Source of the DNA: a virus
Virus record (IMG/VR): IMGVR_UViG_3300046516_000692
Span: 1 to 25,555 of that record
Reading direction: 5' to 3' (one strand)
Length of the DNA stretch: 25,555 bases
Positions 9,438 to 14,657 of the stretch are shown here, piece after piece. The number at the start of each line of letters is the position of its first letter. Position 1 is the stretch's first letter. The notes under the pieces were generated by a model, which had not been told where the DNA came from, searched no databases, and worked only from the letters and a program-made list of their open reading frames with translations. The translations under genes and the position numbers were made by a program.

Positions 9438-11543
9438 ATGGCACGCTATTCCGACACCCTGCGGGATGACCTGACGCAAGCGCCGATCGAGGGGGCGCTG
9501 GTCAGCGTCATCGACCCGCTGACCGATTCGGCACTGCCGCTGACGGCCGATGTCGGTGGCGCGCTCGATAACCCGTTTGCCACCGATGAGTTCGGCTCGG
9601 TCGTGTTCAACATCGCCGATGCCGCAACCGTCGATCTCGAATATCACTACGGCGGCCGACTGGCGCGCAAGGACTATGGCGTCATCGTCGGGGTTGCGGT
9701 TCCCCTGACGCCCGACCAGATTGCCGCTGCGGTCCTGGAGGCGGATGCGAGTGCTGATGCGGCGGCGGCCAGTGCCACCGCGGCAGCGGGCAGCGCCTCG
9801 GCGGCAAGCGCGTCGGCGGCCAGTGCCGCGGCGGCAAGTGCGTCGGCGACGGGGACTGCCTCGATCGCCGCGCTACGCACGATCACCGGCACCCTGGCGG
9901 TGCAGAAGACCGACGTGCTCGGCTATTATGCCCAGGGCGACGGTGGTGGCGGCGAATTCTACTGGGACAGCGCGTCGAGTGCAGCCGATGACGGCGGGCT
10001 CGTCATCAAGCCGACCGCGGTCAGCGGTGCCGGGCGCTGGCGGCGCAGTGTCCGGGGCGATTTCAACGTCCGCTGGTGGGGCGCCAAGGGCGACGGCGTC
10101 ACCGATGACACCGCGGCCTTCCAGAAGGCACATGATGCTCTCAGCGTGTCGGGCAACAGTCGCGGCGGCACGATCCATGTGCCGGCGACGTCAAGTTCCT
10201 ATCTGCTCAACGGCGTGGGCGGAATTGGCCTGAAGATCTCGAAGCATATGACGCTCGAGGGGACCAATTCGGGCGAGCAGGGCTCGACCAATGCGGCCAA
10301 TCTAAAGGTTCCGGCCGATGTGACGGCGATCCGGGTCTACAGCGATGTCGACACCCCGACGCCGACCTCCTACGCCAGTTATACCCGGATCTCGAACATC
10401 AGCATCACCGCGGCGGCCAAGAACGCGACGGGCTATGGCATCTTTTCGACGACGACGATCAAGATCGACCATTGCCAGGTCGAGGCCTTCAAGCAGGACG
10501 GGATTTATATCCACGGCCAGACCGGAACCGGCGCCACCGGCATAGCCGATGGATCAACCATTGAGCATGTCACCAGCAAGAACAACAGCGGCGCCGGGTT
10601 CCACGTCCAGGGCAATGACGCAAACGCCTGCACATTCATCGCCTGCCAGGCGCCGTCGAACGGCACTTATGGATTCCAGGACGATGGCAAGTTCGTCAAC
10701 GTCTATATCGGCTGTCAGGCTTCGGGCAATGGCACCGCGCCCTATCAGAGCACCAACTCGAACGTCTATCTCGGCTGTTATACTGAACTCACCGGCGCAT
10801 TTACGTCGCAACTCGGCCCGACCGATATCGTCGTCGGGGGAATTATCGCCTCGAACCCGGCAACCACATTAGGCGCTGTTGCCGGCGGGATGTCGTTGAA
10901 CGCGGGGTCGCGCTATCTGTTCAACGTCAACGGGGTCGAAAGCGCGCGGCTGAACGACGGCAGCATCTGGACCTCCGGCGGCGGTTTTGCGACCTATGAC
11001 AACCATGTCGTGATCACTGCCAATCCACGCATTACCCTGACATCGCCGGTTGCTGCGGATTCGTTGCAGATCTTCAACAGCAGCGGCGGAGAGGCCGGAC
11101 GGATCAACGTCAGCGGCACCTCGACGGTCTATGCGACGACCTCCGACTATCGGCTGAAGGACAATGTCGTCGATCTGGCCGGCGCGCTCGATGTCGTCGC
11201 CCGGATGCGGCCGGTGGCATTCACCTGGAAGCATGATGGCAGCCCGCAGCAGGGGTTCATCGCCGATGAGCTGCAGGCGGTAGTGCCCTATGCGGTCTCG
11301 GGCACCAAGGACGGGACGCGGGTCGAGCCGCTCTATGACGAGAATGGCGCGAAGACCGGGGAGCAGACCGTTCCCGATTACCAGGGCGTTGACGGCTCGC
11401 ATCTGGTGCCGTTCCTGGTCGCTGCGGTCCAGGAACTGAAGGCACGGCTCGAGGCGCTCGAAACTGGCCAGCCGGCCGCCAGGAGCGTCTCGCCAGGCCG
11501 CGGCCGGAAGGCGGGCGCGGTGCGGACTCGCCGGCGTGAATGA
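9438..11543 (+). CDS. Tail fibre/spike with pectate-lyase-like region and self-cleaving S74 chaperone
   Basis: This is a 701-aa trimeric-fibre candidate. Residues 1-95 form an N-terminal domain that may attach to the virion. Residues 101-138 are an Ala/Ser-only linker. From about 208 (VRWWGAKGDGVTDDTAAF) a right-handed beta-helix of pectate-lyase type begins, with repeats such as YIGCQASGNG and YLGCYTE. Near 569-574 is SDYRLK, the start of an intramolecular chaperone (Peptidase_S74). Ser569 and Lys574 keep the 5-residue spacing of the autocleavage dyad, and cleavage is expected just before Ser569. QGFIADELQAVVPYAV and a terminal coiled coil (VAAVQELKARLEALE) complete that domain. After it comes a basic 25-residue tail. 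It lies between gp4-like and gp10-like genes, which is not the P22 arrangement. It probably recognises or degrades host surface glycans; the enzymatic residues were not identified. Confidence 0.9.
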   Translation: MARYSDTLRDDLTQAPIEGALVSVIDPLTDSALPLTADVGGALDNPFATDEFGSVVFNIADAATVDLEYHYGGRLARKDYGVIVGVAVPLTPDQIAAAVLEADASADAAAASATAAAGSASAASASAASAAAASASATGTASIAALRTITGTLAVQKTDVLGYYAQGDGGGGEFYWDSASSAADDGGLVIKPTAVSGAGRWRRSVRGDFNVRWWGAKGDGVTDDTAAFQKAHDALSVSGNSRGGTIHVPATSSSYLLNGVGGIGLKISKHMTLEGTNSGEQGSTNAANLKVPADVTAIRVYSDVDTPTPTSYASYTRISNISITAAAKNATGYGIFSTTTIKIDHCQVEAFKQDGIYIHGQTGTGATGIADGSTIEHVTSKNNSGAGFHVQGNDANACTFIACQAPSNGTYGFQDDGKFVNVYIGCQASGNGTAPYQSTNSNVYLGCYTELTGAFTSQLGPTDIVVGGIIASNPATTLGAVAGGMSLNAGSRYLFNVNGVESARLNDGSIWTSGGGFATYDNHVVITANPRITLTSPVAADSLQIFNSSGGEAGRINVSGTSTVYATTSDYRLKDNVVDLAGALDVVARMRPVAFTWKHDGSPQQGFIADELQAVVPYAVSGTKDGTRVEPLYDENGAKTGEQTVPDYQGVDGSHLVPFLVAAVQELKARLEALETGQPAARSVSPGRGRKAGAVRTRRRE
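9738..9851 (+). repeat. Low-complexity Ala/Ser-coding repeat tract
   Basis: About 114 bp encode fibre residues 101-138, nearly all Ala and Ser with a few Asp, Thr and Gly. The DNA is made of imperfect repeats of GCGGCAAGCG/GCGTCGGCGG type. Such tracts link fibre head and shaft domains and are plausible recombination points for swapping fibre modules. Confidence 0.75.
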
Positions 11544-13124: not shown

Positions 13125-13619
13125 ATGGTGGCCTCGACGAAATTACCAGAGGGTTTGACGAGGGCCGATCTGGCCGCGGCGTTCAACGGCAATGAGAAGC
13201 TGATCCGTGCCTTCGAGAAGGTGCTGCTGACGGTCGCCCAGAACGCCAAGCTCAGCACCGCCAACGCCGACGCCACGACCGATCTGCAGGACGCCACGGC
13301 GGTTACGCTCTCGCCCAACGCCGCGCTCAACAACGAGCGCGTGCTGGCGGTGGCTTCCCCGCTGGCGCTCGACGACCAGGGGCCGGGCGAGAAGATCGTC
13401 ATCGGCTTCACCTTCCCCTTCTCGGTGCCGGCGAGCCACGCCTTCATCATGAACCTCTTGACCGACACCAACATCACCATGCCCCCTGCCGGGCGGCTGA
13501 TGGCCAGCGGGGCCGAGGCGCCTGTCTATGCCAATGACGCGGCGGCAGCAGCAGCGGGCTATGCCGTGGGAGACATCTACAAGCAGCCGCTCGGAATCGT
13601 GGCCTGGCGACAGGTCTGA
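13125..13619 (+). CDS. Hypothetical tail-tip/needle-position protein
   Basis: This 164-aa protein occupies the slot of P22 gene 26 (tail needle) between gp10 and gene 14. It starts MVASTKLPEGLTRADLAAAF, followed by a helical stretch (NEKLIRAFEKVLLTVAQNAK). A beta-rich part (GFTFPFSVPASHAFIMNLLT) and a C-terminus AAGYAVGDIYKQPLGIVAWR follow. A short N-terminal helix before a small beta domain could fit a needle or plug, but it is shorter than P22 gp26 (233 aa) and lacks a long coiled coil. The alternative is an unrelated fibre-tip-like protein. The start directly follows the previous stop. After it comes the first sizeable gap of the tail block. Confidence 0.7.
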   Translation: MVASTKLPEGLTRADLAAAFNGNEKLIRAFEKVLLTVAQNAKLSTANADATTDLQDATAVTLSPNAALNNERVLAVASPLALDDQGPGEKIVIGFTFPFSVPASHAFIMNLLTDTNITMPPAGRLMASGAEAPVYANDAAAAAAGYAVGDIYKQPLGIVAWRQV

Positions 13620-13654
13620 GGCGGAGTAGGGTCCGACCCTCCGACCCATCCAAA

Positions 13655-13684
13655 TTGACTTTGGTGGAAAACAGCCGTTTTTAT
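13655..13684 (+). promoter_or_regulatory. Possible promoter before the integrase-domain gene
   Basis: TTGACT (13655-13660) and TTTTAT (13679-13684), 18 bp apart, match sigma-70 boxes at 5/6 and 4/6 positions. They lie in an AT-rich patch that stands out from its GC-rich surroundings, in a gap that precedes an unusual gene. This would allow separate expression of the gene at 13729. Confidence 0.4.
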
Positions 13685-13697
13685 GGGTCAGACCCAT
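13683..13697 (+). promoter_or_regulatory. Palindromic site ATGGGT-CAG-ACCCAT
   Basis: A perfect 6-bp inverted repeat with a 3-nt spacer overlaps the end of the proposed -10 box and lies 31 nt before the next start codon. A related GGGTC-CGACCC element occurs upstream (13629-13639). It could be an operator for an autoregulating DNA-binding protein or a small RNA hairpin. Confidence 0.4.
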
Positions 13698-13728
13698 TGA
13701 TCACGCCGCTTATTCCAAGAGGTAAGCC

Positions 13729-14184
13729 ATGGCGACAGGCAAGGTGACGAAGCGCGCAGTTGAGGCCCTGCCTGTACCTGCACAGGGCAAGCGCGAGCAT
13801 CTGTGGGACGATACGCTCAAGGGCTTCGGCGTGATGGTCACGGATCGCGGGGCGCGATCGTATCTCGTGCAGTACCGTATCGGCGGCAGGGGCTCGCCTA
13901 CCCGCCGCGTGACCATTGGGAAGCATGGCTCGCCCTGGACTGCGGAACGTGCGCGCGCTCGAGCCGTCGAACTGCTGGAGCAGGTCAGGCGCAAGGTCGA
14001 TCCGTTCGCGCCAGAGGCCGTATTCGACGACGACAACCCGGAATGGATCGATGTCGAGGACGCCGTTCGCTGCATCATCGCACGCCATGGCGCAGCCGCC
14101 GTCAAGGAAGCCTTGAGGCGGGCAGAGTTCCAGGGTTTCAACTTGGGGCCGGATGGCATAAGGTCCGCGCATCGGCAGCCATAG
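13729..14184 (+). CDS. Orphan integrase arm-binding domain (DUF4102-like) protein
   Basis: This 151-aa protein has an N-terminal ~90 residues that look like the arm-type-DNA-binding domain of P4/sphingomonad-type tyrosine integrases. The segments are KVTKRAVEALPVPAQGKREH, LWDDTLKGFGVMVTDRGARS, YLVQYRIGGRGSPTRRVTIG, KHGSPWTAERARARAVELLE and VRRKVDPFAPE. In an integrase this is followed by a core-binding and a catalytic domain (R-H-R-Y). Here it continues with a short helical tail (WIDVEDAVRCIIARHGAAAV, KEALRRAEFQGF) and stops, and the next gene encodes an unrelated GNAT-like protein. It has its own ribosome site (AGAGGTAA), a candidate promoter and a palindrome upstream, so it looks like an expressed gene. 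A regulatory DNA-binding role is possible. The alternative is a relic of an integrase. Confidence 0.75.
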   Translation: MATGKVTKRAVEALPVPAQGKREHLWDDTLKGFGVMVTDRGARSYLVQYRIGGRGSPTRRVTIGKHGSPWTAERARARAVELLEQVRRKVDPFAPEAVFDDDNPEWIDVEDAVRCIIARHGAAAVKEALRRAEFQGFNLGPDGIRSAHRQP

Positions 14185-14222
14185 CCTGCGCCGGGGCACA
14201 CTGCTTTCAGGAGCAGGCCTCG

Positions 14223-14657
14223 GTGATACGGATAGAGCGCGACGCCGACTTTATCAATGCGATAGCGAATCATCCATCCGTCCAGCCCTATATCCGCGAG
14301 GACGGGGCGCCGACCGACTGGACGCCGGTGGTCAAGGACCGGTTCTCGGTTTCCGGCATCGTCGTGCTGTCCAATGGCGAGGACGCGGTCGGGGCGTTCG
14401 AGGCGACCGCCATCGAGCCGCCGTTCCAGGCTTACCAGATGCACACGCTGTTCGCCGCGACCTGCCGGGGGCGCAAGGCGATCGATACGGCCAAGGCGAT
14501 GCTGGCGTGGATGTTCGCCCATGGCGCGACGCTGATCTGGGGCGCGACGCCGCGCAAGAACCGCGCCGCGCGCTGGTTCAACCGCCAGATCGGCGGGCGC
14601 GTGACCGGCGGCGACGACGAGGAAGACGTCGAGTTCTTTGAATTGAGGGTCGCCTGA
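14223..14657 (+). CDS. GNAT-fold protein at the P22 gene 14 position
   Basis: This 144-aa protein starts at GTG (VIRIERDADFINAIANHPSV). AGGAG lies 9 nt upstream, partly inside a small hairpin (CTGCT/AGCAG, 14201-14216) that might modulate initiation. The middle has GNAT features: a beta strand VVLSNGEDAVGAFEAT, the strand-loop-helix MHTLFAATCRGRKAIDTAKA (compare the acetyl-CoA loop) followed by LAWMFAHGATLIWGATPRKN, and RAARWFNRQIGGRV. In P22 a GNAT-like protein is encoded between gene 26 and gene 7; the position matches exactly. It may act in head or virion assembly rather than as a free acetyltransferase. An in-frame upstream extension is possible but overlaps the integrase-domain gene. The stop overlaps the next gene (TGATG). 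Confidence 0.78.
   Translation: MIRIERDADFINAIANHPSVQPYIREDGAPTDWTPVVKDRFSVSGIVVLSNGEDAVGAFEATAIEPPFQAYQMHTLFAATCRGRKAIDTAKAMLAWMFAHGATLIWGATPRKNRAARWFNRQIGGRVTGGDDEEDVEFFELRVA

Follow-up and report, generated by a model that had tools for sequence, protein, structure and literature searches.

The arm domains of tyrosine integrases have been described as regulatory parts of these enzymes (PMC8138268). The known arms of the PF13356 family are the N-terminal parts of integrases of ~400 amino acids. In tRNA-associated elements, integrase acts as the repressor of an int promoter that overlaps attL (PMC2951348). In the open-licence literature, we found no description of a phage protein in which the arm domain stands alone. 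Here we describe such a protein, encoded within a window of 25,555 bases that makes up the whole of the virus record analyzed. The domain is known; here it occurs in a stand-alone form that is under selection.

The gene (13729 to 14184, plus strand) is an intact open reading frame that runs from ATG to TAG and encodes 151 amino acids, as the initial annotation had reported. A Pfam profile search matched residues 7 to 93 (13747 to 14007, plus strand) to PF13356 (Arm-DNA-bind_3, DUF4102) with an E value of 1.8e-10 and a score of 41.2 bits, where the curated cut-off of the family is 27 bits. We then modeled the protein with AlphaFold2 from 48 aligned sequences, leaving out one row from a phage collection, and obtained a pLDDT of about 90 over the arm region. 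The best three Foldseek matches of this model were 3ju0, 3jtz, and 3rmp; these comprise the arms of two integrases, from HAI7 and HPI, and a P4-like integrase structure (3rmp). Their VIA-align Z scores were 11.5, 11.2, and 10.1, respectively, while the following match reached only 4.8. A sequence search of solved structures with the 151-amino-acid protein gave chance-level matches only. By sequence and predicted fold, the protein is a member of the PF13356 family, and its predicted model has the arm fold. The initial annotation had likened the first ~90 residues to the DUF4102 arm domain and had suggested comparing a predicted structure with those of DUF4102; the comparison returned that fold.

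The remainder of an integrase is missing, as had been proposed. No core-binding or catalytic domain was found in the 151-amino-acid frame, in which PF13356 over residues 7 to 93 is the sole Pfam match. Since these other integrase domains are missing, the protein, judged by its sequence, is not an integrase. For the excisionase-like role that the initial annotation had offered beside those of a regulator and a competitor, no match was found among PHROG, NCBIfam, and other Pfam profiles, although excisionases are small and diverse, and PADLOC returned nothing for the protein. In place of the missing domains there is a C-terminal tail (residues 94 to 151; 14008 to 14181, plus strand) that consists of an acidic linker, two helices predicted by AlphaFold2 with moderate confidence (residues 109 to 120 and 122 to 132), and a neutral end, with weak or no constraint. 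We found no homology between the tail and integrases past the arm boundary in protein or DNA comparisons with the ten nearest integrase loci. DNA similarity to these loci ends at 14016, which rules out the tail as out-of-frame integrase sequence and leaves no sign of the rest of an integrase in another frame nearby. In comparisons made with the entire protein, a known domain was likewise rejected for the tail, whose only full-length match is in the sister contig described below. Its motif FDDDNPEW recurs near the N terminus of short BrnA-like proteins as a short motif only.

Relatives were collected with this single protein as the query in one scan of viral contigs and one of species genomes, which gave 88 relatives. 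The sole other stand-alone copy among them lies at the same locus of a 9,155-base viral contig (L002; IMGVR_UViG_3300047311_000352) and is 95% identical. Its frame does not continue into an integrase, which answers the initial annotation's call for a search of related phages in favor of the two-part architecture. The remaining relatives are integrases of roughly 340 to 500 amino acids, save a small number that run off the end of a contig or are visibly broken. The closest are sphingomonad integrases with 70 to 88% identity over the arm, and this identity ends with DPF, the residues that close the arm domain. As controls, we examined eight short arm-bearing frames from Sphingomonadaceae genomes. 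Most of these enter the core-binding region before breaking, one breaks within the arm, and one looks like an intact integrase but reads differently according to the frame chosen. A cut at the arm boundary followed by a new tail was seen in none of the eight. A full integrase in a frame of 419 amino acids, close to the sphingomonad ones, is also present in an unannotated 6,250-base record of a Bacteriophage sp. (MT837765.1), which may be an island fragment.

The closest integrase genes adjoin tRNA 3' ends. A tRNA T-loop sequence lies upstream of int in all 10 parent-type integrase loci examined, and in 7 of the 10 the distance from the T-loop to a conserved GCTTATC just before int is exactly 157 bp, whichever tRNA is used. 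Upstream of int in L011 to L018, the attL layout is thus very rigid (157 bp in seven loci) despite differing tRNA sequences. This layout resembles the overlap of int promoter and attL described in PMC2951348. We searched for arm-site motifs and found an integrase-proximal 20-mer and spaced elements in the parent loci, with no convincing copy near the arm gene.

To determine whether the gene is maintained, we compared the window with L002. Over arm residues 1 to 93 there are 13 synonymous and 3 nonsynonymous changes. Under neutral simulation, 11.5 nonsynonymous changes are expected, and none of 20,000 runs was as low as observed (P < 1/20,000). Without the densest patch (codons 52 to 64), the arm retains 6 synonymous and 2 nonsynonymous changes (P = 0.006). 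The counts are 3 and 2 for residues 94 to 135 (P = 0.10) and 2 and 5 for residues 136 to 151, which look neutral. These counts indicate purifying selection on the arm but not on the last residues of the tail, as read from two sequences with 16 arm differences; gene conversion by a functional integrase could account for part of the pattern. Between these two sequences, the arm does not follow the neutral substitution pattern of a decayed integrase pseudogene, and with 3 nonsynonymous changes against the 11.5 expected it is unlikely to be a remnant in decay. The profile score well above the cut-off, together with this selection on the arm coding sequence, also places the arm domain beyond chance. 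An antisense open reading frame (13681 to 14199) was ruled out as the true gene, since its 7 synonymous and 22 nonsynonymous changes against L002 are neutral.

The gene lies in the tail block between the needle-position and ejection genes, as had been noted. The window contains a P22-like block with genes for portal, coat, gp4-like, gp10-like (PF11134), gp26-position, gp14/acetyltransferase-like, gp7-like, and transglycosylase-containing ejection proteins. The 5' neighbor is the gp26-position, or needle-position, gene (13125 to 13619, plus strand), which stands between the gp10-like and the gp14/gp7-like genes and has a homologue in the same order in three relatives (L133, L134, and L145). The 3' neighbor is the gp14/acetyltransferase-like gene (14223 to 14657, plus strand; GTG start), which matches phrog_1249 (3.9e-5) and the head morphogenesis family phrog_651 (0.018). 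In L133, the nearest prophage found (its gp10 is 62% identical to that of the window), the gp14-like homologue follows 80 bp after the gp26-position gene; the gap is about 105 bp in L134 and 68 bp in L145. The nearest sphingomonad prophages of the P22-like kind (L133 and L134) and Sphingopyxis phage VSN-002 have no arm gene in this gap and no room for one. Since these relatives lack it, the arm gene is an insertion between the gp26-position gene and its gp14-like neighbor, an extra gene at its junction as phage morons are. In L002, a HigB-HigA pair occupies the same junction. Together with the relatives that lack any insert, this marks the junction as a place for extra genes, of which the arm gene is one. 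Domain, fold, neighborhood, and selection all support the earlier proposal of a stand-alone arm derived from an integrase.

Several other genes of the two contigs deserve mention. The HigB-HigA toxin-antitoxin pair of L002 (5278 to 5901) separates the arm gene from the gp26-position gene, and the palindrome cassette begins right at the higA stop codon. The fibre/spike-like gene (window 9438 to 11543; L002 766 to 3078) has a start common to both contigs and differs in the rest; in the window it is Peptidase_S74 and pectate-lyase-like, and the adjoining gp10-like gene is 97% identical to that of L002. In the head block, a DNA methyltransferase gene (PF01555; 3046 to 3759) shares 4 bases with the end of the portal gene and is a second gene that resembles cargo. 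Close to the right end of the record, the minus strand, opposite to that of the arm gene, encodes an HNH endonuclease (PF13392; 23327 to 23872).

The region 5' of the gene raises the question of whether the arm acts on its own locus. Of the expression signals in the initial annotation, the ribosome site and the palindromes held up; the promoter did not get beyond a suggestion. The ribosome-binding site AAGAGG (13717 to 13722) lies in a leader (13708 to 13728, plus strand) that seems inherited from the parent integrase gene, since blastn similarity to the integrase locus of Sphingopyxis soli (L014) starts at 13708, 21 bases 5' of the start codon. Two exact GGGTCNGACCC palindromes occur farther upstream, at 13629 to 13639 (GGGTCCGACCC) and at 13685 to 13695; the second reaches 15 bp when extended (13683 to 13697, ATGGGTCAGACCCAT). 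A weak promoter-like pair can be read from the sequence (13655 to 13684, plus strand), with TTGACT at 13655 to 13660 and TTTTAT at 13679 to 13684 separated by 18 nucleotides; it is kept in L002, and the palindromes lie around it. A consensus scan around the arm gene accepted no promoter and no terminator, and a promoter here is suggestive only. A host repeat was rejected as the source of the region, which gave just short, chance-like matches of 19 to 25 bp to Sphingomonadaceae genomes. So was a REP-type repeat for the palindromes, since the pair occurs in 0 of 299 such genomes and the longer pattern is confined to L002. In one alternative reading, the arm domain would bind these palindromes and control transcription of its own gene or of the late genes that follow. 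Both palindromes are identical in the two phages, only 3 of 100 positions differ between them over 13629 to 13728, the second palindrome touches the -10-like hexamer, and the region has 53% G+C against 65%; these observations, like the absence of the pair from the 299 genomes, fit such a regulator. However, the scan did not accept the promoter, the palindromes are unlike the conserved elements that precede the parent integrase genes, and another protein could bind them. We consider control of the gene's own locus unlikely.

The gene could also be an inert scar, an integrase fragment that stayed behind after illegitimate recombination or the loss of a mobile element and is translated without having a function. 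Integrases are common and often broken in these hosts, HigBA has entered this gap in L002, change at the end of the tail is neutral, and some satellites are known to integrate into the late genes of prophages (PMC10111431). Set against this are the purifying selection on the arm, the frame and ribosome site kept intact in both phages, and the cut, which falls exactly at the domain boundary with no other integrase sequence adjoining. An inert scar ranks after self-regulation and appears improbable. Last in our ranking, and very unlikely, is a split-off modulator of the phage's own integrase that would tune its integration or excision. The domain is built for arm sites, and the record is a fragment, so that an integrase could lie outside it. 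Yet the relatives lack this type of integrase: in genome G229 no PF13356 integrase lies within about 500 kb of the prophage, where one of another type is about 22 kb away, and the annotation of VSN-002 includes a telomere resolvase but no integrase. In this P22-like sphingomonad phage, the resolvase gene (MZ127829, 14717 to 15835) and the lack of an annotated integrase together suggest a linear-plasmid prophage lifestyle in the group.

We rank highest, with a probability of about 0.4, the reading that the gene is moron-like cargo, a captured arm domain that would act in trans at arm-type sites and int promoters as a competitor or repressor. A piece of a tRNA-site integrase gene from a sphingomonad island or prophage would have entered the P22-like phage with the parent's ribosome site, between the gp26-position and gp14-like genes, where its upstream region is no longer that of the parent and its tail is short and helical. 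We infer that the protein would recognize DNA sites of the arm type, similar to those of the parent integrases. Having no means of recombination, it would occupy the arm sites and int promoters of resident islands or prophages, and the intasomes of such elements would be blocked, their int genes repressed, or both. The parent loci resemble the arrangement of PMC2951348; at such elements, an arm acting in trans without catalytic parts would be expected to repress int and block intasomes. If the gene is expressed with the late block, this seems late for blocking an integrase, which counts against the competitor reading, as does the lack of any convincing copy of the integrase-proximal elements near the gene.

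More speculative, and on balance doubtful, is the general form of this proposal, in which phages carry catalytically dead, arm-only pieces as anti-integrases that act in trans at the arm sites of competing islands and prophages to lock or silence them; the arm-like protein of Alteromonas phage R7M would then be an independent case. A phage gene that keeps the arm alone, under selection, would be a natural test of the arm without the enzyme. It would also suggest that phages and integrated elements compete at attachment sites and int promoters, and it could yield a ready-made inhibitor of P4/HPI-type integrases.

The closest described systems share part of this design each. The arms of P4/HPI/SXT-type tyrosine integrases (3jtz, 3ju0, and 3rmp) are alike in family and predicted fold; there the arm is a part of the enzyme, whereas in the phage it is the whole protein with a new tail. 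The sphingomonad tRNA-site integrases (L011 to L020) are alike over the arm, and L014 has a similar leader with its ribosome site. In contrast to these, the phage gene has no core-binding or catalytic domain, no adjacent tRNA fragment, and no conserved upstream element, and its tail is unrelated. A domain in a 201-amino-acid uncharacterized protein of R7M (MT345684, 2028 to 2633), a phage reported to be lytic, was matched by Foldseek with a probability of 1.0 when viral proteins were searched. This nonintegrase protein has an arm-like C-terminal part that scores 16.6 bits against PF13356, below the cut-off. Its context and N-terminal part differ from those of the window protein, and we take it only as a lead toward possible stand-alone use of arm-like domains in other settings. 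Phage morons are similar in being inserted genes, with their own ribosome site and an AT-richer leader, amid conserved late genes, where L002 also carries HigBA; here, however, the product is an integrase domain, and the scan confirmed no promoter or terminator. The proposed mode of action is closest to the autoregulation of KplE1 IntS, in which the att-bound integrase represses int (PMC2951348). IntS is a full integrase acting on its own gene, while the phage arm is a catalytically dead piece proposed to act on other elements.
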